Source: Catenuloplanes niger
Lineage (GTDB): Bacteria > Actinomycetota > Actinomycetes > Mycobacteriales > Micromonosporaceae
Direction: 5' to 3'
DNA length: 64,000 nt
NCBI RefSeq assembly: GCF_031458255.1
Contig: NZ_JAVDYC010000001.1
Coordinates: 7,922,501 to 7,986,500 of the forward strand
Part shown: positions 32,687-51,186 of the stretch, in pieces
Layout: every line of letters begins with the position of its first letter
Position numbering within the stretch: position 1 is the first letter of the stretch
Position numbers and translations under genes: made by a program
Notes under the pieces: model-generated
The model's input: only the letters and a program-made list of their open reading frames with translations
Told to the model about the DNA's origin: nothing
The model's database searches: none

Positions 32687-33558
32687 TTCAGCCCCGAGGT
32701 CGCGATGCCCTGCACGAAGTAGCGCTGGCCCAGCAGGAACACCGTCAGGATCGGCACCACCGAGATCACCGAGCCCGTCATGATCATGGCGTACTCCGCG
32801 TCGTAGAGGCCGACGAACGCGCGCAGGCCGATCTGCACCGTCCACAGGTCGTTGCTGGTCAGGTAGATGAACGGGCCCATGTAGTCGTTCCAGGTGTTCA
32901 CGAACGTGAGCAGCGCCAGCGACGCGAGCGCGGGTTTGGACAGCGGCAGGATCACCCGTGCCCAGATGCCGTACTCGGAGAGCCCGTCCAGCCGCGCGGC
33001 CTCGCTCAGCTCGTCCGGGATGGTCAGGTAGTACTGCCGCATCAGGAACACGCCGAACGCGCCGAACGCCTGCAGCAGGATCAGCGACAGGTGCGTGTCC
33101 ACCAGGCCGAGCTTCTGCATGATGATGTACTGCGGCACCATGTACGCCTGCCACGGCACCGCGATCGTGGCGATGTAGGCCAGGAACAGCGCGTCCCGGC
33201 CGGGGAACCGGACCTTCGCGAAGCCGTACGCGGCGAAGCTGCCGGTCAGCACCTGCATCACCGTGACCGAGACGCTGAGCAGCATCGAGTTGCCGAGGTA
33301 GGTCCACAGCGGGATCCGGTCCCAGATCTCGGCGAAGTTCTCGACGCGGAACTCGGCCGGGATCCACTGGATCGGGACCGTGAACACCTCGTTGTTCTGC
33401 TTCAGCGACGACGAGACCATCCAGGCGAACGGGATCATCACCAGCAGCGACAACGCGATCAGCAGCGCATAGCCGAGGATCTTCCCGGCCGTACCGCCGC
33501 GGGGTTTCGCCGGTGGGGTGGTGACCACCGCCGGTGGCGTCTCGAGCAGCGTGGTCAT
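32683..33558 (-). CDS. Carbohydrate ABC transporter permease (MalG type)
   Basis: A 291-residue inner-membrane permease with six spans. The EAA loop, near residue 190, is ELSEAARLDGLSEYGIWARVILPLSKPALAS in part, the docking site for the ATPase. The start overlaps the upstream permease stop by 4 bp. A shared ATPase (MsiK-type) is presumed, as no ATPase gene is in the operon. Confidence 0.94.
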   Translation of the reverse strand: MTTLLETPPAVVTTPPAKPRGGTAGKILGYALLIALSLLVMIPFAWMVSSSLKQNNEVFTVPIQWIPAEFRVENFAEIWDRIPLWTYLGNSMLLSVSVTVMQVLTGSFAAYGFAKVRFPGRDALFLAYIATIAVPWQAYMVPQYIIMQKLGLVDTHLSLILLQAFGAFGVFLMRQYYLTIPDELSEAARLDGLSEYGIWARVILPLSKPALASLALLTFVNTWNDYMGPFIYLTSNDLWTVQIGLRAFVGLYDAEYAMIMTGSVISVVPILTVFLLGQRYFVQGIATSGLK

Positions 33559-34454: not shown

Positions 34455-34518
34455 GTGGTCTCCCCTCCGCGGTGCGGGGCCGGCCGTGGCGCGGCCGGCC
34501 CCGCACGGTGTCCTGCGG

Positions 34519-35784
34519 TCAGCCGACCTCGTTCTTGACCCGCTCGCCCATCTCCCTCAGGCCGTCCGGGACCGTCTTCTCACCCGCCATGATCAGCTCG
34601 TGCTGCTCCTTGAGGATCGCGTCCACGTCGGAGGACGTCTCGCTGACCGGCATCTCCAGCATGATCTCGTCCGGCGCGAACGCCTTCTTCGCGGTCTCGT
34701 CGTTCGGCATGCCGGCCACCCCGGCGTACGCGGCCAGCACCGCGTCGTCGGTGAACGACGGGTAGATGCCGATCTTGGCGACCGCGGTCGCGCCCTTCTC
34801 GCCGGACGCGAACTCCACGAACTTCCGCGCACCCGCCGAGTTGGCCGCGTTCTTGTTCACCGCGAACGCGGTCGGCGAACCGAACGTCTTGACGCCCGCA
34901 CCCTCGGCCGGCTGCGGCATCGGCGCGACGCCCCAGTCGATGTCGTGCTTGCCGGCGGCCTTGTCCGCGAGCAGGCGGGCCGAGTACCACGCGCCCATCG
35001 GCACGAACGCGGCCTTGCCGGTGGAGAACTGGCTGTCGTAGCTGACCTTCTGGCTGTTCGCGGTGGCCCACGGCATGATCGAGCCGGACTTCTCCAGGTC
35101 CTGCGTCATCGTGTACTGGTCGGCCATCCAGGAGTAGTCACCGCTCAGCTGGTCGCCGCCGTTCTGTGACGCCGCGATCGCCTGCACGACCGAGCGCCAG
35201 ACGTGGTGGTACGCGCCGTAGACCTTGTTCGCGCCGTCGCCGGTGGTCTTCTCCTTGACCAGCGCCGCGTACTCGTCCCAGGTCAGGTTCGCCAGGTCCG
35301 CGTCGCCGACCAGCTCCCTGTTGTAGTAGAGGACCCAGAAGTCCTGCCGGTACGGCAACGCGTAGTACTTGCCGTCCAGGTCGTACGAGTCCAGCCCGCG
35401 ATAGCTCTCCTTGGGCAGGCCGTCCACCAGGTCGGTCAGGTCCGCGAGCTGGCCGCGGGTGCCGTACCGGGCGTAGTCGGTCACGTTCTTCATGGTCAGC
35501 ACGTCGGTCTTGTCGCCACCGGCCAGCATGGTGGTGACCTTCTCGGCGTAGTCGTCGCCGGCCAGCAGGTCGACCGGCTGGATGTCGATCGTCGGGTTCT
35601 CCGCCTCGAACGCGTCGAACAGCGCCTTGAACTCCGGCGTCTGGTCGTACGCCCAGACCGCGACGGTCAGGACGTCCTTGCCGTCCGCGGTCTTGGCCGG
35701 CTCGTCACCGCCGCCGCCACAGGCGGAGGTGACCAGGACCAGCGCGGTCGCGACCGCCAGGTTTTTCATGAGGTGCCTCTTCAT
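34519..35784 (-). CDS. Sugar ABC transporter substrate-binding lipoprotein
   Basis: A 421-residue lipoprotein with signal peptide and lipobox TSAC at about residue 20-23. The mature part is a cluster-B (MalE-like) extracellular binding protein: LTVAVWAYDQTPEFKALFDAFEAENP (in part), ALPYRQDFWVLYYNRELV, and GAWYSARLLADKAAG. AAGGAG lies about 9 nt before the ATG. Aromatic residues around YYALPYRQDFWVLYYN suggest a sugar ligand, but which one is unknown. Confidence 0.93.
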   Translation of the reverse strand: MKRHLMKNLAVATALVLVTSACGGGGDEPAKTADGKDVLTVAVWAYDQTPEFKALFDAFEAENPTIDIQPVDLLAGDDYAEKVTTMLAGGDKTDVLTMKNVTDYARYGTRGQLADLTDLVDGLPKESYRGLDSYDLDGKYYALPYRQDFWVLYYNRELVGDADLANLTWDEYAALVKEKTTGDGANKVYGAYHHVWRSVVQAIAASQNGGDQLSGDYSWMADQYTMTQDLEKSGSIMPWATANSQKVSYDSQFSTGKAAFVPMGAWYSARLLADKAAGKHDIDWGVAPMPQPAEGAGVKTFGSPTAFAVNKNAANSAGARKFVEFASGEKGATAVAKIGIYPSFTDDAVLAAYAGVAGMPNDETAKKAFAPDEIMLEMPVSETSSDVDAILKEQHELIMAGEKTVPDGLREMGERVKNEVG

Positions 35785-36951: not shown

Positions 36952-38058
36952 GTGCAGCCGGATCGCATGTTCAACCTGCAGCGCCAGGAACGCCTGCTCG
37001 GCGAGCTGCGCCGGCACGGCGCGGTCCGGGTGCGTGACCTGGCCCGTGACTTCGGCGTCTCCGAACTGACCATCCGCCGCGACATCGCCGCGCTCGCCGA
37101 CCGCAACCTGCTCACCAAGGTGCACGGCGGCGCCACGCTGCCGATCGACTTCGTGCCACCGTCGCAGCGGCCGCGGCGGGCGCCGGCGACCCGGTTCACC
37201 ATCGGGATGGTGGTGCCGTCGCTGGACTTCTACTGGCCCGCGATCGTCGCCGGCGCGCGGACCGCCGCCGCCGTGCTCGGCGTCAGCATCCAGCTCCGCG
37301 GCTCCAGCTACGACCAGGACGAGGACCGCCGCCAGATCACCCGCCTGATCGAGGCGCAACAGGTCCAGGGCCTGCTGCTGGCCCCGAGCCCGGACGGCGA
37401 CGGCGACCGCCTGGACGAGATGATCGAATGGATCGGCCGGCTACCGGTCCCGACGATCCTGGTCGAACGTCAGCCGTCCCGCTGGACCCCGACGCCCCGG
37501 CAACTGGAATGGGTCCGCAGCGACCACGCGCTCGGCGTCGAGCTGGCCGTGCGCCACCTGTGGGAGCACGGGCACCGGCGGATCGGCCTGGTGCTCTCCA
37601 AGGGCAGCCCCACCTCCGCACACCTGGAACGCGGCTGGCGCGCGGTCTGCGCCGACCTCGGGCTCCCGGACGAGCTGCTGATCCGCGAGTCGGTGGCGCT
37701 GGACGCGCCCGGCCACCGCGAGAAGATCGCCGCCATCCTCGCGGCCTGCCGCCGCACCGGCACGCGCGCGCTGATCGTGCACAGCGACCCGGACGCGATG
37801 TCGGTCGCCCAGTTCTGCGCGGAACAGGGCATGTCCATCCCCGGCGACCTGGCCATCGTCTCGTACGACGACGAGGTGGCCCACCTGGCCGAGCCCGCGC
37901 TGACCGCGGTCCGCCCACCGAAGAACCACGTGGGCCGGGTCGCGGTCGAACTGATGGTGTCCCGGCTCCTGGAGGGCGAGCGCCGCCCGTCCCAGCAGGT
38001 CCTGGTCACCCCGGAACTGGTGATCCGCAGCTCGTCCCTGCCGCGCGTGGTGCGATAG
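36952..38058 (+). CDS. DeoR-HTH/LacI-sensor hybrid transcriptional regulator
   Basis: About 368 residues. The N-terminal 60 are a DeoR-type helix-turn-helix (RQERLLGELRRHGAVRVRDLARDFGVSELTIRRDIAAL shown in part as GVSELTIRRDIAAL). From about residue 82 follows a LacI-type periplasmic-binding domain (FTIGMVVPSLDFYWPAIVAGA, GHRRIGLVLSKGSP, AIVSYDDEVAHLAEPALTAVRPP). The effector is presumably a sugar. It is divergent from the importer operon and is its likely regulator. GTG at 36952 is preferred (GGGGGC upstream); an ATG five codons later is possible. A GC hairpin follows the stop at about 38058-38093. Confidence 0.9.
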   Translation: MQPDRMFNLQRQERLLGELRRHGAVRVRDLARDFGVSELTIRRDIAALADRNLLTKVHGGATLPIDFVPPSQRPRRAPATRFTIGMVVPSLDFYWPAIVAGARTAAAVLGVSIQLRGSSYDQDEDRRQITRLIEAQQVQGLLLAPSPDGDGDRLDEMIEWIGRLPVPTILVERQPSRWTPTPRQLEWVRSDHALGVELAVRHLWEHGHRRIGLVLSKGSPTSAHLERGWRAVCADLGLPDELLIRESVALDAPGHREKIAAILAACRRTGTRALIVHSDPDAMSVAQFCAEQGMSIPGDLAIVSYDDEVAHLAEPALTAVRPPKNHVGRVAVELMVSRLLEGERRPSQQVLVTPELVIRSSSLPRVVR

Positions 38059-38118
38059 CAGCGTCGGCGTCCGCCGATCGCTACGCTGCTTGCGTATCGA
38101 CGCGAATCATGGACGGGG

Positions 38119-38589
38119 ATGCGGATGACGCAGGTGACCGGTGCGCGGCCGTACGCAGCGGCTGGGGCGCTCTTCCAAGACGATGCGGGCCGCGTTCTGC
38201 TCGTGATTCCCACCTACAAGCAGCAGCACGACATTCCCGGTGGCATGGTGGAGCCCGGCGAGACGCCCCGGGCCGCTTGCGAGCGGGAGATCCGCGAGGA
38301 ACTGTCGCTGCACCGTACAGTCGGACGGCTTCTGGTAGTCGACAGCCAGGTTTATCCGACCGGCGATGACATCCTGCTGTTCATCTTCGACGGTGGTGAA
38401 TTGTCGCCCGACGAGCGGGACTCCCTCGCTCCGGACGGCGTCGAAATCTCCGGGTTTCACTTCGCCGCGCCGGAGACACTCGATCGGTTCGTTCCCGGAG
38501 ACTTCGCGTCTCGCCTGGTCAACGCCGTAGCGGCGCGTCGTTCCGGTGACACCTTCGACCTGGACAAGGGCCGTCGGACGTGCGCGTGA
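38119..38589 (+). CDS. NUDIX hydrolase
   Basis: About 156 residues. The Nudix box is GGMVEPGETPRAACEREIREEL (given as GGMVEPGET and EREIREEL), fully conserved. These enzymes cleave X-linked nucleoside diphosphates. Its stop overlaps the GTG of the SIR2-like gene by 4 bp. This coupling suggests work on NAD or ADP-ribose derivatives, but that is inference. The ATG at 38125 is an alternative start. Confidence 0.88.
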   Translation: MRMTQVTGARPYAAAGALFQDDAGRVLLVIPTYKQQHDIPGGMVEPGETPRAACEREIREELSLHRTVGRLLVVDSQVYPTGDDILLFIFDGGELSPDERDSLAPDGVEISGFHFAAPETLDRFVPGDFASRLVNAVAARRSGDTFDLDKGRRTCA

Positions 38590-40520
38590 ACGAGGAGATG
38601 TCCCTCGACGAAGCGGTGGACTGGCTGGCAGCGGACCGATCTTGCCTGCCGTTCTGCGGTGCGGGTGCCTCCATCCCGGCTCCGGCCTGCGCCCCGGGCA
38701 TCGCCGTGCCGCTCGGCGCCACCACCAGGTTGCTGGCCGAAGTGGCGGGATGGCCGGATTTCGATCACTCTCCCGGGATGGAGCGGGTGCGTGGTGATCT
38801 CCTGCCCGAGTCGTGTTACGGCGCGATCGCCTCCGTCGCGGGCACGGCCGACCACCTCCGGCTCTGGTCCTCGTATGCGTGGAGTGACGTGCCCGGAGAA
38901 CCGGGGCCACTGCCGAACGCCGGACACCACCTGTTGGTCCACATCGCGCAACGGCATGCCCTCCCGGTGCTGACGACGAACTTCGACTGCTTCATCGAGG
39001 ACGCGGCGGAGCGCCAAGGACTACGACCGATCGTGGCGCTGCCGGACCGGCGGGACCGTTTCCCGAAGATACGCACCAGAGACGGCGAGGTGGCGGTCTG
39101 GAAACTGCACGGCAGTGCGTCGGACATCGGCACGATCCGAAGCCAGGCAGCGGACCTGGCGCGCAGTTCACCCCGGGCGCTGCGGGACCAGCTGCGGCTC
39201 GGAGCGAAGCGGGTGCTGATCGTCGGCTACAGCGGGCGCGATTTCGACATCTTCCCGGTGCTTGCCGAACTTGCCACCACCGCCGAATGCGTATGGGTGG
39301 ACCTGAACTTCCCTCCGGAACACCGCGCCTTCACAATGCGAAACTGCCGCCGGGTCACGGCGAGCTTCGAGGACCTCGCGCGCCGGTTCTGGCGGGCACA
39401 CCCGGCTGGCTCGGATGCGGCGCGTACCGCGCTTGACGCGGTTCTCTCGCGGTCGGACACGCATTCGGAGGAGATCAGACTCCGGTACGTCGGCCGGGTG
39501 CGCGATGCCACCGTGGCGAGCCTGGCACCCGTTCTGAACAGTAATCCGCGTCGTGCCTCACTGGCGCTCGCCACCGCGGTGGCTACGGTCGCCGACTTCC
39601 CCGTCGTCAACGAGATCCTCGCCGCCGGTGAGAGCACGACGGTGCGCGGCCTGTTGCTCGAATCATTCGCCGCGAGTTCGACGGATCGCCACCGCGACGC
39701 GGAACAGGCGGCACGCGCCGCGGGACGCGCAGCCTGGCGTGCGGGGGACGTCTTCGGTGTCGGCCGTGCCGAGATCGCGGTGTGTTACGCCCGGGTCCGC
39801 CGATTCGTCGGTACGATTCGGGATCCCGAGATCTCCGCGCCGTCACCGGAACCTGTGCGGGCGGTGCTGGCCTCAGCCCGGCTGGTCGCCGACGTCCTGC
39901 TGCTGTCACCGGTCTTCGCGGTCGCGTCCGCTCTCGTCGCCCGGCGCGCGGAGAACAGGCGGCATTACGACGCGCTCGACTTCTGCGCCGACTACGCTGA
40001 ACAGCTGATCCGGTTGGGCGGGATGGTAGCCGTCATCCTCGGGCGCCTGCCTCGAGGCACCGGGCGTGCGTCGGACACGATGTGGCGGTTGATCGGCGCC
40101 GCCGCCTCATCCGTCGGTTACATACGCGGTGTCCTCAACACCAAGAAGTACCGGTCCCGGGGGCAACCGGTGACGGAGGCGGAAGAGGCCGCCATCGCCG
40201 CGTCGTTCATCGGTGACGCGGTGGCGGGTGCCCTTCTTGCCCGAGACAACGCGGCTCGCCACCTAAAGCAGATGACCGAGGCGTCCGACGCGGACCGAGA
40301 GGCCGTCCGCGCCGCCGCCGAACGTGACCTCCATCGAGGCTATCTGCTGGCGACACGCGCGGACGTACCCTCTCTCCAGCTGAAGATCCTGCTGATGGTG
40401 CGTCGGCATGGCCTGATCGAGCCACCTCTTGCCGATCCCGCCGGCGTTGTCGGCAGGCTGCAGGGTGAGGCCGACGAACATGCTGCCGCCCAGGTGAGGC
40501 ACCTGCTGCTGGGCCCGTGA
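38586..40520 (+). CDS. SIR2-like domain protein, candidate defence effector
   Basis: About 644 residues. The N-terminal 240 form a SIR2-like NAD-binding domain: FCGAGASIP near residue 25, LTTNFDCFIEDA with the Asn-Asp pair, VWKLHGSASD with the catalytic His, and LIVGYSGRDFDIFPVL near residue 215. The C-terminal 400 residues are helical and match nothing I recognise. SIR2-type domains with such extensions act as NAD-depleting effectors in several anti-phage systems. GTG start overlaps the NUDIX stop; the ATG four codons on is possible. It ends 8 bp before the convergent 2-TM gene. Confidence 0.82.
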   Translation: MNEEMSLDEAVDWLAADRSCLPFCGAGASIPAPACAPGIAVPLGATTRLLAEVAGWPDFDHSPGMERVRGDLLPESCYGAIASVAGTADHLRLWSSYAWSDVPGEPGPLPNAGHHLLVHIAQRHALPVLTTNFDCFIEDAAERQGLRPIVALPDRRDRFPKIRTRDGEVAVWKLHGSASDIGTIRSQAADLARSSPRALRDQLRLGAKRVLIVGYSGRDFDIFPVLAELATTAECVWVDLNFPPEHRAFTMRNCRRVTASFEDLARRFWRAHPAGSDAARTALDAVLSRSDTHSEEIRLRYVGRVRDATVASLAPVLNSNPRRASLALATAVATVADFPVVNEILAAGESTTVRGLLLESFAASSTDRHRDAEQAARAAGRAAWRAGDVFGVGRAEIAVCYARVRRFVGTIRDPEISAPSPEPVRAVLASARLVADVLLLSPVFAVASALVARRAENRRHYDALDFCADYAEQLIRLGGMVAVILGRLPRGTGRASDTMWRLIGAAASSVGYIRGVLNTKKYRSRGQPVTEAEEAAIAASFIGDAVAGALLARDNAARHLKQMTEASDADREAVRAAAERDLHRGYLLATRADVPSLQLKILLMVRRHGLIEPPLADPAGVVGRLQGEADEHAAAQVRHLLLGP

Positions 40521-40528
40521 ATCGATAC

Positions 40529-41554
40529 CTACCGCGGAGATCCACGAGTCCCGTCCAGGGCGGAGGCGCCGACGGAACCGAGGAAGCGGGCACGTGACCT
40601 CTCGAACTCTTCCGAGAGTTCGTGGAACAGGACATCATCCAGAGTGTCACCGGTCATCGCCTCGAAAAGTCCGACGACGTCGTCACGAGACGTCGAAACG
40701 GTGATCTCAAATCGCCGGGTAGAGGGAGATCGGCGAATCCTGGACAGCTCCGACTGTTGCATTCTATAGATTATAGAATCGCGCGGGAAACGCACCGTGC
40801 GAGGGAACACGGTGCCTCGATCCATGTCGCTGAAAAGCGATACCCAAACAGAGGCGTCGAATAACTCGAACCTGTCGAGTGCGGGCTCCTGAATGAACAG
40901 TATCTCAATGGAGTCGCAGCTGTGGCGCGCCTCGAAGAGCCCAACAAGCCCGGACAGCAGTGATCGGCGCATGTGTTGCCGCAGTTCGTCAGGACTTCTC
41001 GCGCCGACGCTTTGCTGAGCCAGGCGATATCTGAGACGGGCGTCCAGCGCGTACGGAACCCTAGGGTCTGGCAAGACGAAGTGAGCCTGAACCTGTCGGT
41101 TTCGGCTGGCCAGCAGTCGCATTGCGCAGAACTTCGCATGCAGGCCGTTGTACCAGTACTCCTTCGAGCTGTGCAGATCGTCCGTCATCTGCTCGTTGAA
41201 TGCCTGATTCGGGCGATCGGACGGCTCGAACTCGTCGGTGGGGAAGTAGCGCCTATGGTGTAGCCGTATGGCACTACGCATCTCATTGACAACCGACTGC
41301 CCGAGGCTTTCGCGAGTGAGCTTCTCGACAAAAAATGACTGCATGATGCCGAATGAGGCAGATACCAGAAGACCCGTCGCGACAGCGTTTATGCTGCTGC
41401 TAAGAAGGCTGTGGGGAAGAGTTGATCCCCACCAGAGAAGGCATATTGACAAGATGGCTGAGCCAAGGAGAAGGCTGATCTGGCTTGTTTGTGAGAGGCG
41501 CTTCAGTGTGGCGCTCAATGTGGCTCGAAGATTTTCCTCAGGCGAATATGGCAT
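40529..41554 (-). CDS. 2-TM membrane protein with PLD-like soluble domain
   Basis: About 341 residues. Two hydrophobic segments (residues about 25-45 and 50-70) are followed by a soluble domain of 260 residues. Its segments AHFVLPDPRVPYALDARLRYRLAQQS and SIEILFIQEPALDRFELFDASVW have the strand-helix pattern of phospholipase-D-like or related domains, but I see no HKD motif, so catalysis is doubtful. It resembles the 2-TM protein at 49361 in layout. The DNA here is visibly less GC-rich than the flanks. Function unknown. Confidence 0.6.
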   Translation of the reverse strand: MPYSPEENLRATLSATLKRLSQTSQISLLLGSAILSICLLWWGSTLPHSLLSSSINAVATGLLVSASFGIMQSFFVEKLTRESLGQSVVNEMRSAIRLHHRRYFPTDEFEPSDRPNQAFNEQMTDDLHSSKEYWYNGLHAKFCAMRLLASRNRQVQAHFVLPDPRVPYALDARLRYRLAQQSVGARSPDELRQHMRRSLLSGLVGLFEARHSCDSIEILFIQEPALDRFELFDASVWVSLFSDMDRGTVFPRTVRFPRDSIIYRMQQSELSRIRRSPSTRRFEITVSTSRDDVVGLFEAMTGDTLDDVLFHELSEEFERSRARFLGSVGASALDGTRGSPR

Positions 41555-41604
41555 GGGCAGAATCTAGCACATAGAACGCTTCCGGAATGGAATGGTAAAT
41601 ATTA

Positions 41605-43034
41605 TCACGGCATTTCTTGGAAGCCGTGAATCCACGGCTTCTTGTTGTCGCTGAGCGTCATGACCGATTTGCTGGGGCGGTCACCTCTTGATTGTGCCAA
41701 GCTCAGTAGGATGGCGGCCAGGGCGCGCACCGAGTTTCGATGTAGTTCGATTCCGCTTCGCGATGCATCTGATTTCAAAAAGTCTTCGAATAGGTCCTTC
41801 CTGGCTTGGTTGCCAAGGCTGTCCGACGCGCTACCGGCGTTCCGGGGAACGAAAACTGTGCGACTGTCTGGCCGCCGATCAGATCGCTGTTGCGATAGAT
41901 GGAGACGTCAAACGAGTTTTCCGTCCTGTCGTCGGAACCACTTTGATAAGAGTGCGCTTGAATACTCATCAGCGGGCCGACCTGGACTGTGAGCCGTTCG
42001 TGGCGCGCTCGGCCGTTGCTCTTGTATGTGTCCGTGGGAAGGTTGAGCCAGGCGCGTCGCGAGAACGATGTCTGGAGTAGGGACAGTACTGTTGAAGTGA
42101 TCACCGAGGATCGCCGAAGGAATTGTCCTGTGATAATGGCGTCAGTTTCTCCCCACTGCTGCCTGGGGAGGGTGGAAGGGCGATCGAAATCCGCGAATCG
42201 ATTCCATTCTTCTTTGCCGAATGCGCGACGATAAGAGGAATCTGTCAGTTGATCAGTAAGGTCCAAAGGGCCGGAACTTGCCGACTCGAAGGAAAGATGG
42301 GTCGGTGGGCGATCGGCGTGGAAATTCGTCTCGCTTAGCCAGCACAGCAGATCCACGAAGTGATATCCGGAGTGCAGTAGTTTTCCATATCCGTACCGGT
42401 AAGGGTGGCCTTCCCGGAGGGCGAACTCCCATGGCATGTTCCAGGTTCCATCTGCGTGATATATGTCGATGTAGGTGATCGGCACGCCGAACTTTCTTAT
42501 GACGTCCTCTAGCGCCGACCTGATGGCGGTGTATCCCGGGTGCGCCCGTCGCTGCGTCTGTATGACCACGTGGCTACCCGTGGAGGTGGACCGTTCCGCC
42601 AGGTGGTTGTAGTCATCTATTAGGCGCAGGGCTGTTGACGAACTCCCTGCTCTCAGGTCGCGAGCGGTCGGTGGCTTCTCCAGCAGAACGTTGATCCCCC
42701 GCATCAGTGCCCATTCCGCGTACTGGAGATGGTGCATCGGTTCAGTTGCCACGATGCATCCCCAAGGGCGCTGGCCGTCGGACAGTAGTGTCCTGTCCAG
42801 CTGTTCCGTCGTCACATGCTTTTGGTGCGCTTCCTTGTCGTCGAGTAGAAGAACTGTGCTCGGCTGGACTGTGCGCGTGGACAAGTAATCGTACACCTCC
42901 TTCCGCTTGGATTCAATATCCACGATCGCTGATATATAAACCGATCCGCTGATATGGTGGCGTTCAAGTAGCGGATAGTAGAACGTCCTGGCGTACGGAC
43001 CGAAGCCGAACAGGATTATTGGACGACGAGTCAT
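41605..43034 (-). pseudogene. Frameshifted Gfo/Idh/MocA-family dehydrogenase
   Basis: The N-terminal Rossmann part is intact: IILFGFGPYARTFYYPLLER, then WGCIVATEPMHHLQYAEWAL and the EKPPTA motif. The reading frame closes at 41775, but another frame with clear coding character carries on to a TGA at 41605-41607. It includes SLGNQARKDLFEDFLKSD and MTLSDNKKPWIHGFQEMP. Adding one base in the GGGG run at 41844-41847 joins them into about 476 residues. So this is either a lost base in the genome, a sequencing error, or recoding. The gene is AGGAG-preceded and divergent from the TauD gene with only 45 bp between. The substrate is unknown; sugars or cyclitols are typical for the family. Confidence 0.72.
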
Positions 43035-43079
43035 TTTCGTAACTCCTGTCCCTTTTTTCTGAAGTAAAGGGTGAATATC

Positions 43080-44015
43080 GTGGATATCGCCAAATTGGAA
43101 TTTGTGCCAATCGCCGGTCATCTAGGGGCGGAAGTTCGAAATATCAGACTTGATCGTCCTTTGGGTGCGGATGCGGTGGCCGCCGTCCAGCAAGGGCTGA
43201 GCCGGTTCAAGGTGCTCTTCTTTCCGGAGCAGTGGTTGTCCCATGAGCAACAGACTGCTCTCGCGCAGCAATTCGGTACGCTTGCCAAATCGCATCCGTG
43301 GATCTCTGTGGTTGCCGGCCATCCCGCTGTTCATCCCTTGGTGACCGGGCGTTCCACGATTGTCGGACTGCAGGCTGCGCACCGCGCGCGGTGGCGCCGG
43401 CCTGCAGCTCTGTCGGGATGGCACGCGGATCTCACCGCGGTCGTCAACCCGCCGAAGTTCAATATCCTCAGAGCGGATTCGGTGACGAGTCGAGGAGGTG
43501 ACACGATCTGGGCGGACATGGTGGCCGCATATGAGAACCTGTCTGATCCACTCCGACGTCTGGTCGACGGTCTGACGGCTCTGCACCGATACGGTGTCGG
43601 CTACGTGCCGTACGGAGGCGTGCAGGATGAGTACAGCGAAAGGGTCCGCTCTGTAGCTTTGGCCTCGTGTCATCCGGTAGTTCGAGTTGTCCCGGAAACG
43701 GATAAGCGGGCGCTCTTTGTGAACCCGTCCTTCACCAGCCACATCGAAGAAGTCAGCCCGGCGGAAAGCGCGCATCTGCTTGCGCTGCTCTTTGAGCACG
43801 CCACCCGGACGGAGTTTACGGTGCGGTACCGATGGCGCCCTGGTGATCTTGCTCTTTGGGACAATCGCACCACGATCCATGCCGCACCCGAGGATCATGA
43901 ACACCTCGGTGAGGAACGCGTGATGTATCGAGTGTTCGTCGCAGGTGATCGCGCAATTGGCCCGCTTGGGCAGGTCTCCCGAACTGTGTGCGGTGAGGAC
44001 TACCCGAGGGCGTGA
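43080..44015 (+). CDS. TauD/TfdA-family 2-oxoglutarate dioxygenase
   Basis: About 311 residues. The iron triad is HxD in SGWHADLTAVV (about residue 115-117) and the distal His in TTIHAAPEDHEH, with the 2OG-binding Arg in VMYRVF. Further: FKVLFFPEQWLSHEQQTALAQQFG and LALWDNRTTIH are classic TauD/TfdA segments. Members hydroxylate taurine, herbicides or unusual amino acids; the substrate is not known. GTG at 43080 has AAAGGG about 8 nt upstream; GTG at 43071 is an alternative with worse spacing. It is divergent from the Gfo/Idh gene. Confidence 0.88.
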   Translation: MDIAKLEFVPIAGHLGAEVRNIRLDRPLGADAVAAVQQGLSRFKVLFFPEQWLSHEQQTALAQQFGTLAKSHPWISVVAGHPAVHPLVTGRSTIVGLQAAHRARWRRPAALSGWHADLTAVVNPPKFNILRADSVTSRGGDTIWADMVAAYENLSDPLRRLVDGLTALHRYGVGYVPYGGVQDEYSERVRSVALASCHPVVRVVPETDKRALFVNPSFTSHIEEVSPAESAHLLALLFEHATRTEFTVRYRWRPGDLALWDNRTTIHAAPEDHEHLGEERVMYRVFVAGDRAIGPLGQVSRTVCGEDYPRA

Positions 44016-44795
44016 CGCTGGCTGGAGCGTCATGGGACCTGCAGAATCGGCCGCACCGGCCACTCCGGGCCGTATGACGGAATGATGAGCAGCGGCCCGT
44101 CATGGGTGAAGCTCAGGTGAGCGCGGAAGCTTACCCTGTCGCCTGGCCGGCAGAAACAGAATGCCTTGGACAGGCTGACCACGGTGACCTCCGCGAACCG
44201 CCGATTTCCCACCATTGCATCCGTGAGCGTGAAAATCGATGGCAGGTCCAGATGCTCATCGGCCATAGGTGCGATGAAGGTGGCGTGGACCATCTCGGCC
44301 GCCTGCGGTTCGGTGCGCGGAACCGGTGCCGCGCGTGCCCGGTCGTTGCGACGACGGGAGTGATAGGCGATGGAGACCCGAGCCCCTCGGTAAAGGAAGT
44401 TGAATCGGTCTCTTCCGTTGTTCTGGAAGACTTTGTATAACTCTTCTGTCGTGATCTCCGGGTATGCGGCGCGCCAGACATAGAACAGATTAGTCTGTTC
44501 GTCGGGCGGCCACCGAATCTCCCAGTCGGAGGTGGGATCCCTGACCATCGTCAGCAGCGCGCTGGCAACCCTTCGAGCCGATATGGCGCCGTATACGTCC
44601 AGGTCGAAGTCCGACTCGTTGACGGCGAGCCCGCACGCGTAGGAACCATTCAATCCGAGGTCGTCCTCGGGGATGATCCGGGTCAGTGACAACAGCATCG
44701 TCCGTAGATGCGGTGAGACCTCCGCTTCTCCGCGCAGTACCCGTGCGGCGGCCTCCTCAGGATTGATGTGTTCCACTATGTCGTGGGGTTGCACT

Positions 44796-45789
44796 GAGGT
44801 GATCTCAGTGAGTTTCGGGCAGGATTCGGTATTCGAAGTGGGTGAGGTGAAGTGCGGCGGCGACGATGTCACCGATTCGTCGTGGGCTGGCGGTGGTATG
44901 GCGTAGCGTTTTCCAGCGGCCGACGAGGATGGCGAAGCCGCGTTCGCCTTGCCAGCGCAGGCCGCGTAGCAGCCGGTTCACCGTCCGGTTCGCCACCGCG
45001 AGTTGCCGGCCGCCGGCCGGTTGTTTGGTGGGGGTTTTGATGCCGTGACCTGCTCCTTCGTAGCCGGCGTCGGCGAGGGCCGGCAGCTGCAGTTCGGCGG
45101 CGGCCCAGTTCAACGCGGCGGTGACGCCCAGCTGCTGAGCGCAGCTGAGATCATGCATATGCCCGGGCAGTGACGGTGAGGTCCAGATGATCAGCCCGTC
45201 AGGGCGCATGACGGCCTGGACGTTCGCGCCGAAGTCCCGGTGCTTTCCCGAGTACCAGGCGTCGATCGTCTCGCCCTTCACGCTGGTGGCGGTCTCCGCG
45301 AGGCGGTCACAGTCGAACAGCTTGCCGTCCAGAATGACGAACGCCCAGCCCTCGTCGGCGGCCCGTTGTAACGCCTCATGCAGATCAGGTGCCTGGGCGG
45401 ACAGCACGGTGATGCCTTCGGCGAGATACCGGTAAACGGTGGCCCGGGAGATCCCGAACCCGGCGCCCAGCACCGTGGCGTCTTCGGCTTTGCGGAACCA
45501 CACTATGACCAGCAGCGCCTGGTAGAAGCAGGTCAACGACCGTGTCCCGCGACGGGTGCCCCTCGCCCGCCGTTCGGCGGACAGCAGCTGGGCAAGGTAG
45601 CGCACCAGTTCCCTGGGCACGTCGAGCATGGCAGGATAAGCGATCACGTGGAGCCCTCTCGTAGACCTGTTCCGTCGCAAGAACCTGTCTATCGATGGCT
45701 CCACGCCCATATCCAGCACCATCCGCTTCGACCCGATATGCCCGTGTCTACAGCAGAACCGCGCCGCAAGTCCTCGTTGAGATCACCTC
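44796..45789 (-). mobile_element. 994-bp IS5-family insertion element with ACT target duplication
   Basis: Terminal inverted repeats are GAGGTGATCTCAGTGAG on the left and, read inward from the right, GAGGTGATCTCAACGAG (15 of 17 match). ACT directly flanks both ends (44793-44795 and 45790-45792), a 3-bp target duplication. It carries one transposase gene and interrupts the nucleotidyltransferase-like gene. The size, single ORF, DDE transposase type and 3-bp duplication fit the IS5 group (ISL2-like). Confidence 0.88.
44805..45722 (-). CDS. IS5-family DDE transposase
   Basis: Up to 305 residues, with a helix-turn-helix stretch (FGISRATVYRYLAEGI) and a DDE_4 domain: the first Asp in VILDGKLFDCDRL, the second in HMHDLSCAQQLGV, and ADAGYEGAGHGIKTP, with a later acidic residue in RWQGERGFA. 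The frame is intact, so the element could be active. A GTG at about 45648 may be the true start, with MLDVPREL as the family-like N-terminus; the ATG at 45722 also lies inside the element. Confidence 0.88.
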   Translation of the reverse strand: MVLDMGVEPSIDRFLRRNRSTRGLHVIAYPAMLDVPRELVRYLAQLLSAERRARGTRRGTRSLTCFYQALLVIVWFRKAEDATVLGAGFGISRATVYRYLAEGITVLSAQAPDLHEALQRAADEGWAFVILDGKLFDCDRLAETATSVKGETIDAWYSGKHRDFGANVQAVMRPDGLIIWTSPSLPGHMHDLSCAQQLGVTAALNWAAAELQLPALADAGYEGAGHGIKTPTKQPAGGRQLAVANRTVNRLLRGLRWQGERGFAILVGRWKTLRHTTASPRRIGDIVAAALHLTHFEYRILPETH

Positions 45790-46113
45790 ACTAGCTCGAA
45801 CGCTCGGTGGTAGACCGGAACATAAGCGAAAGCAAGTTGGCGGGGGGTGGGCCGGCCGTCCGGCCATCTGTGGTCTCGGACCTTCACCATGCGGTCTCGA
45901 TGGGGAAGGTCGTCGCTGGGGGCCGCACTGAGCGGCGCCCAATCCGGCACGGACAGTATCCCGGCCTCCGGATGCAGGTCGCCTATGGCTTTGTAGATCC
46001 AGCCGTTGCGTAACCGCATCTTATCGGCGTAACGAATCCCGCTGTCCCGGAGATCGTACGTCCGCCAGGTGGGAGTGGAGTTCTGCCAGGTCGGTGATGC
46101 CACCGTCCATGCC

Positions 46114-47871
46114 TCAGTCATCCGTTCCTCCCAAGAGAGCGTTCAGGTCCATGAAGACAAGTCGTGAGTTGTCGAAGTCGCTGATCAAGGCGGTGCGTTC
46201 GGCCGAATCCACGCTGATGAAGCGTGGGAAGTAGAGGCTTCCGGCGAGGCGGGTCGTCGTGTCGGCGAGAGACCGAATGTCCCCGTTTCTGGCCGCTAGG
46301 AGAAGCCGGTGGTTGCCGGTGTCGACGATGAGCATCCTTTCGTCCTCGAGCACCGCTATCGCGCGTGGATGGCGGAGTGGGATCCCGGTAAGGTCCGAGA
46401 CCTGCTCAGCGTTGATAGACCATGTGATGGTGCCGTCGACGGCGACGCGAACGACGCGATGTGCGCCAGTGTCGCAAACCAACACTTCGTCGCCGAGGGC
46501 AAGAGCCATGTGCGGATCGTTGAAACCGTGCCACGACATGGAGGAAGTGCCGTCGATCCGGAGTCTGACGACACTTCCCGCACCGCTGTCGGTGATGAGG
46601 AGGTCCGTGGAACCTTTGATGACGGATATGTGATGCGGGTCTACGAACGGTACTGGTTCGCTCGCATCGGTCAACCGCCAATCATGCAGCGACTGCTTGA
46701 CCCGGCCGTCGTGGTCGAGCCAAGTCAACCGGCCGTTGCGCCCATCCGCGACGACGGTGCCCTCCGGCGTTTGTACGGCGAACCGGGGCCAGTCCAGGTT
46801 TGTTTGCTCGCGCAGCGTCGGCGGTGGCAGTTCCTGATGGATTTGGCCGTCCGGAGAGAGAGCGAGTACTCGGCAGTTGTGGGAGTCCGTCACCACTATT
46901 CGGTCTGGAGCGGCGAAGTGGCCACCTCGAGGCTGAATGATTTCAGTGGAGGTCACCTCTGCTGATCCATGCAGTTCCACGAGGCCACCGTCCGGAGCGA
47001 TCTGGAGGAGCCGGCCACCTCGACCCTCGGCCACCAAGAGGCTTCCGTCGTCGCACATCACCGCGGTGTTCGGGTACCACAGACGGAATGACGGTTCGGA
47101 GAAAGAGTCGAGCATGCCCCAGGAGCGGTGCAGTCGATCACCATCGAACTCCAGCAGACGATTGTTCTTGGTGTCCGTTACGAGCACCGTGCCTTGAGAG
47201 GTGAACGCGGCGAATCGTGGTGCGTTGAGCAAACCGTCCTGCTTGCCGGCCCAGCCAGGTCGGCCCGTCACCCGCCGCGGTGGTCGGCTGCGGAACGGGA
47301 CAGGGAAGTGGAGCACGATGTGCCGACGCGCGTCAGCGACGAGAAAGCCGGTACCGTCCGGCGCTGCGCTGACTCCGGACGGTTCCTCCAGTCCGTCAGG
47401 TGCGCCGCCCTCGAAACGCAAGGCGCCCGATAAGTCGTAGCCCCGTATCAGTCCTGAGGTGGGGAAGACCGCGACCACCAGATCGTCCCCGATCAGCGTT
47501 GCTGCTGTTGCTGGGCAGGAGAAGGCGGTGCTCTCGACGTTGTCGCCCGCTCTGTCTCGACCGTGGAGCTCGAGAATACCGTCACGGATCATAAGCAGCC
47601 GTGATCCTGACACCGAGGCAAACGTTACTCGTCTATCACCGGTGGAGCGCCATCCTTCTATTGGGCTTACGTGGCCGAGGCCCTCCGTAGTGTGCACTGC
47701 TAGAAGATGATCTCGACCGAGTGGGAAGGCGCATGCGAAACCGGTATTCATCAGTGCGCTGCGGTGTACGGCACCGGGTTGCCTGAGCCGCCTGCCCAGC
47801 TCCCACGCGATATTTCGACCGTGTAGATCTTCCCGAGGAATGCGGTGTTGTGCCGGCGACTGCCCTACCAT
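46114..47871 (-). CDS. NHL-repeat beta-propeller protein
   Basis: About 585 residues with repeated NHL units: LVTDTKNNRLLEFDGDRL, IVVTDSHNCRVLALSPDG, VLVCDTGAHRVVRVAVDGTI, LIVDTGNHRLLLAARNGDI. These make a six- or more-bladed propeller, a ligand or protein platform. No signal peptide is seen. The ATG at 47871 overlaps the SDR stop by 7 bp, which suits the tight operon; an ATG at 47751 gives a 545-residue form and cannot be excluded. In this operon it may be a lyase-like or scaffold partner; its function is unknown. Confidence 0.72.
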   Translation of the reverse strand: MVGQSPAQHRIPREDLHGRNIAWELGRRLRQPGAVHRSALMNTGFACAFPLGRDHLLAVHTTEGLGHVSPIEGWRSTGDRRVTFASVSGSRLLMIRDGILELHGRDRAGDNVESTAFSCPATAATLIGDDLVVAVFPTSGLIRGYDLSGALRFEGGAPDGLEEPSGVSAAPDGTGFLVADARRHIVLHFPVPFRSRPPRRVTGRPGWAGKQDGLLNAPRFAAFTSQGTVLVTDTKNNRLLEFDGDRLHRSWGMLDSFSEPSFRLWYPNTAVMCDDGSLLVAEGRGGRLLQIAPDGGLVELHGSAEVTSTEIIQPRGGHFAAPDRIVVTDSHNCRVLALSPDGQIHQELPPPTLREQTNLDWPRFAVQTPEGTVVADGRNGRLTWLDHDGRVKQSLHDWRLTDASEPVPFVDPHHISVIKGSTDLLITDSGAGSVVRLRIDGTSSMSWHGFNDPHMALALGDEVLVCDTGAHRVVRVAVDGTITWSINAEQVSDLTGIPLRHPRAIAVLEDERMLIVDTGNHRLLLAARNGDIRSLADTTTRLAGSLYFPRFISVDSAERTALISDFDNSRLVFMDLNALLGGTDD

Positions 47872-48566
47872 GGGTGCGCTCGGCCGTCGCGGTAGACGAA
47901 CGGGTTCGGGCTGGCCTGCTGCCGGCACAGCGAGATCAGGGACCGTGCTGCGTCGTCCGGCTCCACGTTCGCGTCCACGGCCGCGAGCCGAGTTCGGAGA
48001 GCGCCGGGATGAACAGCAAAGACTCGGATGCCGACAGCGGCGAGGTCCTGACGCAGACAAAGGCCGGCCATGTTCTCTGCGGCCTTGCCGATGCGGTATG
48101 CGTAGTGCAGGGGCCCGGTCACCTTCTCCTCGGAGGCGACGGTGCTGAAGGCTCCCCACCTCGACGAGACCAGCGCGACCGCCGGCCTGCCGGCGCTGAG
48201 CAGATTGGGGAGCAGTGCCCGGGATATGTGGATCGGCGCTAGGCAGTGAAGAGCCAAGGAGTGGCGTACGTCATCGAGGTTCAGATCGTTCAGTCCGGCT
48301 GGACCGTAGGTACGGCCCGCATTGTGAATCAGGAGGGATACGGGCGTTTTCCGCACTGCTGCGACGATGCGGTCGGCGGCCTGATCGGTGGTTACGTCGG
48401 CCACCACCGCCCGCACATGGTGGCCGAGTGCCCGGATCCGGTCTTGATCGGTGGACTGCCGGACCACCCCGACGGTTCGGACGCCCTCGCGAGCCAGGCG
48501 ACTGATCAGAGCGAAGCCGAGGCCTCGTGAGGCTCCGGTGACGACTGCCATCCCGGTCGTCGTCAC
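47865..48566 (-). CDS. Short-chain dehydrogenase/reductase
   Basis: A 233-residue classical SDR. TGASRGLGF is the cofactor motif (TGxxxGxG), HNAG is the NNAG equivalent, and the catalytic Ser lies in ALVSSRWGAF with YAYRIGKAA as Y-x3-K. C-terminal VHPGALRT is typical. The GTG start overlaps the PhyH stop (GTGA). Substrate unknown; it presumably acts on the product of the neighbouring dioxygenase or dehydrogenase. Confidence 0.88.
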   Translation of the reverse strand: MTTTGMAVVTGASRGLGFALISRLAREGVRTVGVVRQSTDQDRIRALGHHVRAVVADVTTDQAADRIVAAVRKTPVSLLIHNAGRTYGPAGLNDLNLDDVRHSLALHCLAPIHISRALLPNLLSAGRPAVALVSSRWGAFSTVASEEKVTGPLHYAYRIGKAAENMAGLCLRQDLAAVGIRVFAVHPGALRTRLAAVDANVEPDDAARSLISLCRQQASPNPFVYRDGRAHPW

Positions 48567-49315
48567 CGAAGGCTCGATTTTTCCGACCTTGCGCGTTCGT
48601 TGCCACGATAGATGGCGTCACCAGCGACGAGGATCTGCGTTGTATCCAGCGGGCGTGGGTCGAGCTCGTCGACGCTGCGATAGCTCAGAGCGATGCTCAT
48701 CCGTGTGGTGTTACCTGCGTTCCGGCCCACGGAGTGAAAGGTGAGGCTGTCCAGAAGAAGGACGTCGCCTGTCGAGGCCGGCACCGGGAGGACTTGTTCA
48801 GACAGCTCTTTGATCTCGTCGTGAGCATCTAGCCACGTGCCGCCGCCGTCCGGTTGTGGAACACCGAAGAACGGGGCGAACTGAGAACCCGGTATCACTT
48901 GCGTGCAGCCGTTGTGCGTGGTCGAGTCCTCGAGATAGACGATCGCGGTGATGACATTGCGGCTCCATTGCAGAACGTCCCGATGCAATCTCGCCTCTGC
49001 CTCGCCCGGTCCGTTGACAGATGCCTGATTGTGCCTGTTGGTCTGGAATATGATGTTCGGTCCCAGGAGCGATGTGAGCGGCTCCAGAATTCCGGGGTGC
49101 GTGATCAGGCGCCTGCCAAGTCCTGGATCGCGGTCAACGAACTGGTAGAGCTTGAGCTGGCCGCCGGTGCTGACGGCCGGTGGGCCGCTTCGCGGATCAA
49201 CACTCTCGTTCGTGATCAGCTGTTTGAGGCTTCCGACGAGATCACCACTGATGCATCCTCTGAGTATGAGATAGCCGCACTGGCGAAAGTGGCGTATCTG
49301 CTCGTGTGTAAGGAT
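48563..49315 (-). CDS. Phytanoyl-CoA dioxygenase (PhyH) family protein with an ATC start
   Basis: About 250 residues when read from the codon after a strong ribosome site. The HxD iron motif is in RLHRDVLQWSRN (about residues 111-113), the distal His in LDSLTFHSVGRN near 194, and the 2OG Arg in MSIALSYR. The N-terminus LTHEQIRHFRQCGYLILRG is exactly how PhyH proteins begin, and GGAGG lies six nucleotides before its first codon. That codon is ATC, not ATG. No ATG, GTG or TTG occurs in frame until a TTG at residue 110. The gene is therefore either started by a rare codon or has lost its start by point mutation. The stop overlaps the SDR GTG. Confidence 0.75.
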   Translation of the reverse strand: MLTHEQIRHFRQCGYLILRGCISGDLVGSLKQLITNESVDPRSGPPAVSTGGQLKLYQFVDRDPGLGRRLITHPGILEPLTSLLGPNIIFQTNRHNQASVNGPGEAEARLHRDVLQWSRNVITAIVYLEDSTTHNGCTQVIPGSQFAPFFGVPQPDGGGTWLDAHDEIKELSEQVLPVPASTGDVLLLDSLTFHSVGRNAGNTTRMSIALSYRSVDELDPRPLDTTQILVAGDAIYRGNERARSEKSSLR

Positions 49316-49360
49316 GGTGACCTCCGGTGAAGGCTTGTCCAGCGATAGTGCCGGGGACAG

Positions 49361-50116
49361 TCATTCGATGGGTGTATGGGTGCCGGCAGACTGCGTGGTG
49401 CGCCAGATCTCTTCGAATTGTTCTAACCAGTACTTGAACCACTGGCCGTCCGCTCGGGTCAGATGGATGTGCATGCGGGAGCCGATGGTGTCGTTCCGGA
49501 AGCCGTGAAACTCGACGTTCGCGAATCCGCGCGGTGACTGCGGGTCGATTGCAACGATGCTGAACCCTGGATTGAACGGGATCTCGCCGTACGCAAAATC
49601 CCCGCTGACCTGCCAGCGGGACATCGCCTCCAGGCGGTTGCGGATCTCTCGCATGGACGCCGCTGCCGCCTGCACCGGATGATCGAGAAGGGCATCCAAC
49701 TGTGCGGCGATCGGATCGTTCTCATCGAACAGCCGTAGCGTGACGATGCGTACCGTGCCATCGTTTCTCGCCAGGGCGCCACGACGGAGCATCTCGCAGC
49801 GTTCGTTCGTCAGGAAGTTCGTCCCGACCGGCGCAAAGATCCATACTTCTCGGGCGGTGCGTAAGGCGTCGGATATCGGATGACGGTCGTAGTCACTACG
49901 GTCGAGGAACCGTTCCTCTTGATGGGCGGCCAGAGCGACGCGCAACAGCAGGAAACCGATCCCCGCGAACAGCAGTGACCAGCGGAGGTTGTCCGGCAGG
50001 TCCGCGCCGATCAGTAGCAGCGCGCCGAAGATGAAAGCGACGACGGTGGTTGCGTAAAGGTCGAGGGAGCGTTTCTGCTTGATGTCGTCCACGATCTGAT
50101 GAAAGCGCCGCACCAT
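49361..50116 (-). CDS. 2-TM membrane protein with soluble domain
   Basis: A 251-residue protein. Two hydrophobic segments near residues 22-38 and 44-62 (ATTVVAFIFGALLLIGA, WSLLFAGIGFLLLRVAL) anchor a soluble domain with VWIFAPVGTNFLTNERCEML, VRIVTLRLFDENDPIAAQLDAL and GFANVEFHGFRND. The general layout matches the 40.5-kb protein. A PLD-like or signalling fold is a guess. It precedes the PhyH gene by 45 bp and may be the first gene of the operon. Confidence 0.65.
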   Translation of the reverse strand: MVRRFHQIVDDIKQKRSLDLYATTVVAFIFGALLLIGADLPDNLRWSLLFAGIGFLLLRVALAAHQEERFLDRSDYDRHPISDALRTAREVWIFAPVGTNFLTNERCEMLRRGALARNDGTVRIVTLRLFDENDPIAAQLDALLDHPVQAAAASMREIRNRLEAMSRWQVSGDFAYGEIPFNPGFSIVAIDPQSPRGFANVEFHGFRNDTIGSRMHIHLTRADGQWFKYWLEQFEEIWRTTQSAGTHTPIE

Positions 50117-50622
50117 GCCGCAAGTCTCACAGTCCTATGTGACTTTCGGAGTCCACCGTCCGGTCAGCGGTCTTGACCGTCCGGGACCATGCGTTCCGGC
50201 AGCGGCACTCGACATCGGCTACCGGCGGGCTTGGTCTCACCATGCGGAGCGACCTATCGAGGCTTCGGTCTGAGGGCCTCGCCGGTGAGCGGAGGGGTGT
50301 GTCGTACCCGATATTTCTAGATTTAGCGGTTTGCTTTCCGTGGTGGCGCTTACCGCGGCCAACAGACCGGTGATGAGCGGGCCTGACGTGCCGGCGGATG
50401 GTCCGGGTGCCCTACAGCGTCTCCTGCCGGGCCCGGGCCGTCGATATTCCCGGACCCCCGCGGATGATGTGTTCGCTGACAGAACGGCTCGGCGCGTCGA
50501 GCGCACAGCCACCCCGTAGGTGCGACGTTACGGTCGAACTGCTCGGCCTGTGGCCAGGCGGCGCGTAGGCGTCGCCGCTGACCGGTGAGGATGCGCCAAC
50601 ACGCCCGATGCGAGCACTCGCT
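50117..50622. other. Right border spacer of the accessory island
   Basis: About 500 bp with no convincing gene on either strand and no tRNA that I can fold. It contains AT-rich patches (ATATTTCTAGATTTAGCGG near 50310). I find no IS ends or direct repeats that would mark the island edge. Confidence 0.4.
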
Positions 50623-51186
50623 TCAGAGCGCGGCACTGAGGCGGGTCTGGACGCGGTCCGCTATCGCGCGGATGTGCGGGGTGCGCAGGTGGGCGACGGC
50701 CGCGTTGGGGGAGCCGGGGCCGTGGCGGTGCAGCATGTCCGCGATGCGGGCGTCGATGCCCAGCGGCTCGCCGCGGGCGCCGACGGTCTGGTCGGCGTAG
50801 GTCAGCGCGTCCGAGGTCGCCGAGGCCTCGTCCGGGTAGTCGGCCATCTCCGCCTCGAGGCCGTGCACCGCGGCGACGAAGCAGGCGCCGGAGTGGTTGG
50901 CCACGAGGCCGGAGACTCGGGCCGGCCAGCCGTGGCGGTCGAGCAGGCGGGCACCGTCCAGCGGGTGGAAGCCGGTGGCGCGCGCCAGCTCGCCGTAACC
51001 GATGTCGTGCAGCCAGGCGGACGCGACCAGGATCTCCCGGTCCTCGGCCGGGACCACGGTGGCGAGCCGGGCGGCGCGGGCGGCCACGGCCGCGGTGTGC
51101 AGCCACCGGTTACCCAGGCCGCCTATCACCCGGTGGGCCAGCTCGCGGGCGGCGTCGGCGGTGGGACGCAGCAGGACCGAAGACAT
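50623..51186 (-). CDS. HD-domain phosphohydrolase-like protein
   Basis: About 187 residues. NRWLHTAAVAARAARLA gives the first His, and VASAWLHDIGYGELA gives the HD dyad near residue 60; GLVANHSGACFVA gives a later His. The pattern is that of metal-dependent HD phosphohydrolases acting on nucleotides or phosphoesters; substrate unknown. TACCGT ends 6 nt before the ATG, so it may be leaderless. Confidence 0.85.
   Translation of the reverse strand: MSSVLLRPTADAARELAHRVIGGLGNRWLHTAAVAARAARLATVVPAEDREILVASAWLHDIGYGELARATGFHPLDGARLLDRHGWPARVSGLVANHSGACFVAAVHGLEAEMADYPDEASATSDALTYADQTVGARGEPLGIDARIADMLHRHGPGSPNAAVAHLRTPHIRAIADRVQTRLSAAL

Follow-up and report, generated by a model that had tools for sequence, protein, structure and literature searches.

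The stretch of DNA analysed here, 64,000 nucleotides of the Catenuloplanes niger genome (contig NZ_JAVDYC010000001.1, positions 7,922,501 to 7,986,500; hereafter the window), lies within a single contig of 9.74 Mb and carries a compact oxidative gene set. This set encodes two Fe(II)/2-oxoglutarate (2OG) oxygenases of the PhyH and TauD families, a short-chain dehydrogenase/reductase (SDR), a Gfo/Idh/MocA-type dehydrogenase (Gfo), an NHL-repeat protein, a nucleotidyltransferase-like protein (NTase) and a protein with two transmembrane segments (2TM). A relative with open frames was identified in Streptomyces phaeofaciens JCM 4125. The reading that we favor, and hold to be fairly probable, is that the set represents a pathway for a specialised metabolite, joined by an NAD-dependent module for protection, and that it was transferred and is now degraded in the window. 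The cluster is apparently undescribed and, in addition, a clear case of loss after transfer.

The gene set and its relative in Streptomyces phaeofaciens

The features that define the set in the window are the following (coordinates within the window, strand in brackets).

38059-50627 (no strand): stretch of 12.6 kb, absent at this site in four sister genomes by blastn of the window; ends good to ~10 bp
49361-50116 (-): 2TM protein, 251 aa, first gene of the conserved set; two transmembrane segments by eye
48563-49315 (-): PhyH-family Fe(II)/2OG oxygenase; Pfam PhyH, E 3.5e-21; 50% identity to S. phaeofaciens
47865-48566 (-): SDR oxidoreductase, GTG start; Pfam adh_short, E 3.3e-24; 47% identity to S. 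phaeofaciens
46114-47871 (-): NHL-repeat protein, 585 aa, ATG start, frame checked open; Pfam NHL, E 1e-21; 47% identity over 588 columns
45790-46121 (-): NTase gene, 5' part; 52% identity to the N-terminal 107 residues of the S. phaeofaciens NTase
44796-45789 (no strand): insertion sequence (IS), 994 bp, with a DDE_Tnp_4 transposase (Pfam) at 44805-45722 (-)
44030-44792 (-): NTase gene, 3' part, with the GS..SD.DLDV motif; 48% identity over 252 columns to the S. phaeofaciens NTase
43071-44015 (+): TauD-family Fe(II)/2OG oxygenase; Pfam TauD, E 4.1e-54; 57% identity to S. phaeofaciens
41632-43034 (-): Gfo/Idh/MocA-type dehydrogenase, frameshifted; Pfam GFO_IDH_MocA, E 4.7e-5; 50% identity to S. 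phaeofaciens

The PhyH, SDR, NHL and NTase genes are coupled by overlaps of 4 bp (GTGA), 7 bp (ATGGTAG) and 8 bp (ATGACTGA), respectively, and the TauD gene is convergent with the NTase and divergent from Gfo. In the S. phaeofaciens locus (L009), which served as the reference for the identities of the window genes, 2TM, SIR2, PhyH, SDR, NHL and NTase are encoded on one strand, followed by TauD on the opposite strand and Gfo on the first one. Each of these frames is open from ATG or GTG to stop, and the SIR2 gene, which sits between 2TM and PhyH, overlaps each of them by 4 bp. Apart from this extra gene, the order and strands of all seven genes are the same in the two genomes, with identities of 39% for 2TM (163 columns) and 47-57% for the genes and gene parts listed above. 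Two of the overlaps, PhyH/SDR (GTGA) and NHL/NTase (8 bp), are kept in both, so that overlapping co-directional tailoring enzymes are conserved together in more than one genome. Alignments also indicate that the HRD motif of PhyH, the HAD motif of TauD and the EKP motif of Gfo, all of which we take to be catalytic, are retained in both copies. The SIR2 label of the S. phaeofaciens gene, for which no Pfam family was found, was assigned on the basis of motifs recognized by eye and tblastn similarity to SIR2-like genes elsewhere. Given that the GC content at third codon positions (GC3) of the cluster genes is 0.87-0.96, the S. phaeofaciens copy looks settled in its host. Beyond Gfo (L009 13892-20316), this genome encodes a response regulator, a protein with AMP-binding, carrier and thioesterase domains (~2 kb past Gfo), an epimerase, a SnoaL-like protein and a prephenate dehydratase, the last four within 2-7 kb of Gfo; these genes are perhaps a separate aromatic pathway, or perhaps part of a larger cluster.

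The two-genome comparison also bears on the view that these genes are mere neighbors, assembled by transfer and having no shared function. A single inherited transfer could bring unrelated genes together, the insertion site is variable, and three further genes of the stretch (the SIR2-like gene at 38580, a NUDIX gene and a second membrane protein, see below) lack a clear S. phaeofaciens counterpart. Against this stands the colinearity of the seven genes, which share order and strands at identities of 39-57% and retain two of the overlaps, and we regard such an assembly as very improbable.

A first-pass annotation, made from the letters and open reading frames alone, had described the oxidative genes as an orphan cluster with four genes coupled by overlaps, which the sequence bears out. 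The family labels that it gave were recovered by Pfam for PhyH, TauD, adh_short, GFO_IDH_MocA and NHL, whereas the NTase falls below every Pfam cut-off. Several details required correction: TauD is on the + strand, the open reading frame taken for the NTase begins within the IS, the actual NTase gene is split around a transposase that the annotation had not mentioned, and the 2TM gene of the conserved set, at 49361-50116, had been left outside the cluster. The expectation of intact relatives was borne out by one genome, that of S. phaeofaciens, with seven shared genes in the same order. As for co-occurrence beyond chance, the argument is colinearity at ~50% identity in two genomes, that is, few independent cases. 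The combination had also been called undescribed, in agreement with our searches: no paper joining PhyH, NHL repeat, nucleotidyltransferase and biosynthetic gene cluster was found in the open-access literature; the papers listed by a looser search do not, judging from the title and the start of the abstract, deal with a cluster of this kind; none of the open-access papers found on S. phaeofaciens and biosynthetic gene clusters concerns the cluster locus, judged in the same way; and no PADLOC model names the cluster.

Transfer, decay and rarity of the window copy

The GC content of the stretch at 38059-50627 is 62.5%, compared with 73.1% and 74.8% in the flanks of the window, as the lower GC noted in the first pass implied. 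The genus sample comprised five genomes including that of C. niger, and the four sister genomes (L039-L042) were compared with the window by blastn. Their homology ends at window positions 38054-38058 and starts again at 50628-50639, so that the stretch is absent here in all four; the site holds 39 bp in one of them, and in the remaining three it is occupied by other DNA, of ~1.6, 2.2 and 2.9 kb. None of the window cluster proteins has a match at the corresponding site of the four genomes, and the NTase and 2TM are found nowhere in them, which supports the transfer suggested earlier. The site is bordered by a gene for a DeoR/periplasmic-binding-type regulator on one side and an HD-domain gene on the other; no tRNA was found in the window and no integrase among the scanned proteins of the stretch (Pfam scans). 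Judging from these comparisons and from the lesions described next, the window copy is probably horizontally acquired and now inactivated. By eye, the contents of the site in the sister genomes, other than the 39 bp, are a pair of DHFR-like and AraC-like genes, a transposase, and a P450 with a regulator.

The suspicion of a decaying, silenced copy is supported by four differences from S. phaeofaciens. First, the IS at 44796-45789, with ends GAGGTGATCTC/GAGATCACCTC and ACT duplicated on both sides, splits the NTase gene, the halves of which are in frame across it (332 nt, remainder 2, and 763 nt, remainder 1). The genome contains seven copies of this element, and given that the other six are identical to it at 100%, the insertion is probably young; comparison of the ends of the seven copies revealed matching 3-bp flanks (ACT or AGT) at five. 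Second, and as a further correction, the Gfo homology goes on in another frame: in a tblastn search with the S. phaeofaciens protein, one frame matches down to 41847 (E 4e-148) and the other from 41832 to 41632 (E 3e-10). Third, the PhyH frame, also to be corrected in this respect, has no ATG, GTG or TTG between the stop at 49361 and position 48988; upstream, GGAG and six bases are followed by ATG in S. phaeofaciens and by ATC, from which initiation is very weak, in the window. Fourth, the SIR2 gene between 2TM and PhyH in S. phaeofaciens is absent from the window. Given that the two closest relatives of 2TM also have a SIR2-like gene next to them (see below), loss of this gene from the window copy appears more likely than its gain in S. 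phaeofaciens. After the window 2TM gene there is a candidate fossil of the SIR2 start, identical to S. phaeofaciens in 20 of 33 bases, which is only suggestive because this level is reached by 8 of 228 ATGA sites, the candidate included.

The cluster is very rare, and only two genomes carry the set. A seeded scan of genome_contigs (84,980 species), with pattern seeds derived from the 3' part of the NTase, produced 29 candidate stretches, a single one of which, in S. phaeofaciens JCM 4125, encodes a relative. NTase searches among 250 genomes from the family and 396 from the phylum detected one genome each, in both cases the window's own; when the S. phaeofaciens genome was searched with the window NTase as a positive control, one match was obtained. 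Among 392 genomes of a large genus, presumed to be Streptomyces, one gave a match over 91 residues at E 6.5e-4 (E 3e-6 with only its 3.3-kb locus as the target), which was set aside as chance because it lies opposite a YgfZ-like gene (identified by eye) and no other cluster gene is present in 20 kb. At E 1e-20, Gfo was found in 2 of 296 genomes, its own and G527 (104 bits), the latter being a distant relative at 26-27% identity and rejected as such, and the NHL profile at 1e-30 retrieved 1 of 256, again the window's own. There was no match to the NTase in plasmids and phages, none to PhyH in 150 genomes at 1e-15 (a search without a known positive), and none to the S. phaeofaciens SIR2 protein in plasmids or in 121 genomes, the genome search again lacking a known positive. 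Because the genome samples overlap, these counts must not be summed, and most species lie outside these searches.

The 2TM-SIR2 pair and the nucleotidyltransferase

Matches to 2TM were detected in 11 of the 121 genomes of the family, including that of the window, and two of these are close (G111, 69%; G110, 65%). In both, a SIR2-like gene comes next and overlaps the 2TM gene by 4 bp, and in G111 two SIR2-like genes stand in a row. No oxidative cluster genes are present in 19.9 kb around the G111 2TM gene, the G110 contig stops 83 bases past the SIR2 frame with the downstream side outside the data, and the NTase search of the family found no genome besides the window's own. None of the eight genomes with weak 2TM matches has a SIR2 gene within ~1.5 kb, and for four of them there is none in the 15-18 kb fetched; the pairing therefore appears to be restricted to close relatives. 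The SIR2 profile was built from five sequences, including those of L009, L054 and L055, so that its matches on these loci are not independent; an independent likeness comes from tblastn, with E values of 4e-10, 2e-10 and 1e-11. In L054 (9556-16751) and L055 (84-7939), which come from two other genomes of the family, 2TM is located amid several SIR2-like genes, two of them in a row in L054, in what amounts to a multi-SIR2 locus. The SIR2-like gene of the window itself, at 38580-40520 and 8-10 kb off, is only remotely similar to the S. phaeofaciens SIR2 (E 0.045) and is not its orthologue by sequence. Given that the closest relatives of 2TM precede SIR2 genes without any oxidative gene in the DNA seen, the pair looks like a separate module that was joined to the oxidative operon, and it looks to have entered the operon before the two known copies diverged.

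The NTase is the least recognizable member of the set. Its best Pfam match is NTP_transf_2, with E values of 0.1 (intact relative) and 0.15 (3' part in the window) that both miss the cut-off, and its profile matches Cid1 over residues 122-186 with an E value of only 0.16. Pfam, NCBIfam and PHROGs provide no name for the NTase or for the 2TM protein. The alignment nevertheless contains, by eye, GLNGSYACGLA..SD.DLDVYG, that is, GS followed by DxD, the signature expected of the nucleotidyltransferase superfamily. The archaeal predicted nucleotidyltransferases of COG1665 presumably share GS..SDxDxxVYG, following an N-terminal domain with an HP motif; this likeness is a lead only, and a search for a paper under the COG1665 name found none.

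The presence of an NTase, a SIR2-like gene and 2TM in one operon raises the possibility of nucleotide-signal defence, in which a signal made by the NTase, oxidised or trimmed by the other enzymes, would activate SIR2 (as an NADase) and 2TM (as a membrane effector). The coupling of the S. phaeofaciens 2TM-SIR2 pair to PhyH by 4-bp overlaps, the pairs in G110 and G111, and the variability of the insertion site among sister genomes are in line with this scenario, as would be, if the cluster 2TM were a SLATT protein, the precedent of SLATT 2TM proteins adjoining TIR genes, predicted to be ADP-ribose (ADPr)-regulated effectors (PMC9503650). However, among the window proteins only the SIR2 domain of the separate SIR2 gene gives useful PADLOC matches (pAgo, E 8.8e-10; ThsA, 0.003), and among nine S. 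phaeofaciens proteins only the intact NTase has any match (PDC-S09, E 0.055), the window NTase halves having none. With regard to CBASS, the NTase is not recognized by PADLOC as a CD-NTase; 2TM and SIR2, which overlap the operon in S. phaeofaciens, would be candidate effector genes. Unlike Thoeris, there is no TIR family in the Pfam scans, and the match of the window SIR2 to ThsA models is confined to the E value of 0.003. The order of a 2TM gene and a SIR2-like gene with a 4-bp overlap is shared with SIR2-based and 2TM conflict systems, but here the pair is joined to an oxidative operon, and the S. phaeofaciens 2TM and SIR2 have no PADLOC match. Furthermore, two oxygenases, an SDR and Gfo are hard to fit into signalling, and the third catalytic acid of the NTase is not evident. 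Altogether, a defence system of this kind seems rather unlikely. A joined system, in which a modified compound resembling a nucleotide is made by the NTase together with the oxidative enzymes, is sensed or consumed by SIR2 and 2TM and so feeds an NAD-based immune response, we consider unlikely.

Possible functions and neighboring genes

The combination of two oxygenases, two dehydrogenases and an NTase points to the tailoring of a polar small molecule, and the metabolite pathway that we favor can be outlined from the intact form in S. phaeofaciens, a coupled row of 2TM, SIR2, PhyH, SDR, NHL and NTase, the co-transcription of which we infer, with the divergent pair TauD and Gfo. Gfo and SDR would carry out hydride transfer on a polar substrate that resembles a sugar, cyclitol or nucleoside, and PhyH and TauD one C-H oxidation each, that is, hydroxylation, epimerisation or ring closure; the NTase might add a nucleotide, for activation or self-protection, and the NHL propeller could be a scaffold or a lyase. 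The identity of the product and the order of these steps are conjectural. The 2TM-SIR2 pair, which looks like a separate module built into the operon, would probably serve NAD-dependent immunity or self-protection.

Relatives of single genes occur in settings that resemble secondary metabolism. The three Protein Data Bank (PDB) matches of the PhyH profile are SnoN (E 4e-8), human PhyH and SnoK (E 5e-7), and clusters of the SnoK/SnoN type, which we take to belong to the nogalamycin pathway, resemble the present one in the paired Fe(II)/2OG oxygenases, the SDR, the overlapping genes and the actinomycete host. They differ in that here there is no core enzyme in the conserved set, whereas an NHL protein, an unrecognized NTase and a SIR2-2TM pair are part of the operon. 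A relative of the NHL protein (28%) is encoded within a YcaO/nucleotide-sugar cluster. Of the four plasmid-borne Gfo relatives examined (among 12 listed), three, at 31-33% identity, belong to clusters with GNAT, aminoglycoside-phosphotransferase (APH)-like, LLM and PIG-L genes in Embleya, Streptomyces and Kitasatospora, with the difference that no other gene of the window cluster has a match in ~19 kb around each. This plasmid cluster (L014, L016, L017) is itself conserved among the three genera and comprises aldolase, MaoC, GNAT, APH-like, LLM, Gfo/Idh, phosphodiester-glycosidase-like and PIG-L genes.

An alternative reading is that of a catabolic cluster, in which TauD and PhyH would remove a group from a compound that is sulfonated, phosphonated or sugar-like, and SDR and Gfo would oxidise the product. 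The best PDB match of the TauD profile is a putative taurine dioxygenase (E 1.5e-86), and PhyH bears a weak likeness to methylphosphonate hydroxylase (1e-7; 31.7 bits, the cut-off being 500). In contrast to taurine and sulfonate catabolism, the TauD score of 220.5 bits does not reach the cut-off for taurine dioxygenase, 313 bits, and there is no transporter among the ten scanned proteins or the NUDIX gene; the ABC importer genes at 32686-35784 are outside the stretch and common to three of the four sister genomes. The NTase and NHL protein have no obvious place in such a pathway, and the cluster is very rare, all of which makes a catabolic function quite unlikely.

Several observations weigh against the specialised-metabolite pathway as well. 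The conserved set lacks a core scaffold enzyme, a transporter and a dedicated regulator, the ten window proteins scanned include no core scaffold enzyme either, and none of the S. phaeofaciens genes beyond Gfo has a match in the window. With regard to the NTase, no third catalytic acid is evident by eye, and a model built from three rows has a mean pLDDT of 44, for which reason no reading is drawn from the fold search (no match at E <= 0.001). The SDR/NHL overlap differs, being 20 bp in S. phaeofaciens (from the first GTG) and 7 bp in the window. Many ordinary TauD proteins are closely similar to that of the cluster (425 plasmid records; <=45% among the 20 matches listed), and the fourth plasmid relative of Gfo, from Mesorhizobium (28%, with the longest coverage), is in a different setting. 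As to the lesions, PhyH might start at an in-frame CTG (such codons are present at 49360 and 49342), and the Gfo frameshift and the PhyH start change, both small, could be sequencing errors, an explanation that does not extend to the IS. Finally, the rarity itself, with only two genomes carrying the set, counts in the same direction.

The set is compact, and combines two oxygenases with an NTase of no recognized family; the open-frame copy in a named, deposited strain, S. phaeofaciens JCM 4125, allows direct testing. If it is true that SIR2-2TM depends on the pathway, metabolite tailoring would be linked with NAD-based immunity.

The remaining genes of the stretch, at most candidate members of the cluster, are the following.

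40529-41554 (-): second membrane protein (by eye); no Pfam match
38580-40520 (+): SIR2-like protein, 646 aa; Pfam SIR2_2, E 1e-11
38125-38589 (+): NUDIX protein, at the left end of the stretch; Pfam NUDIX, E 2.3e-14

In this region (38125-41554), the NUDIX gene overlaps the SIR2 gene by 10 bp, and both face the second membrane protein, which belongs to no family; the three may form a conflict module of their own within the stretch. Elsewhere in the window, a strong AT skew (-0.37) is observed at 26001-28000, in GC-rich surroundings.

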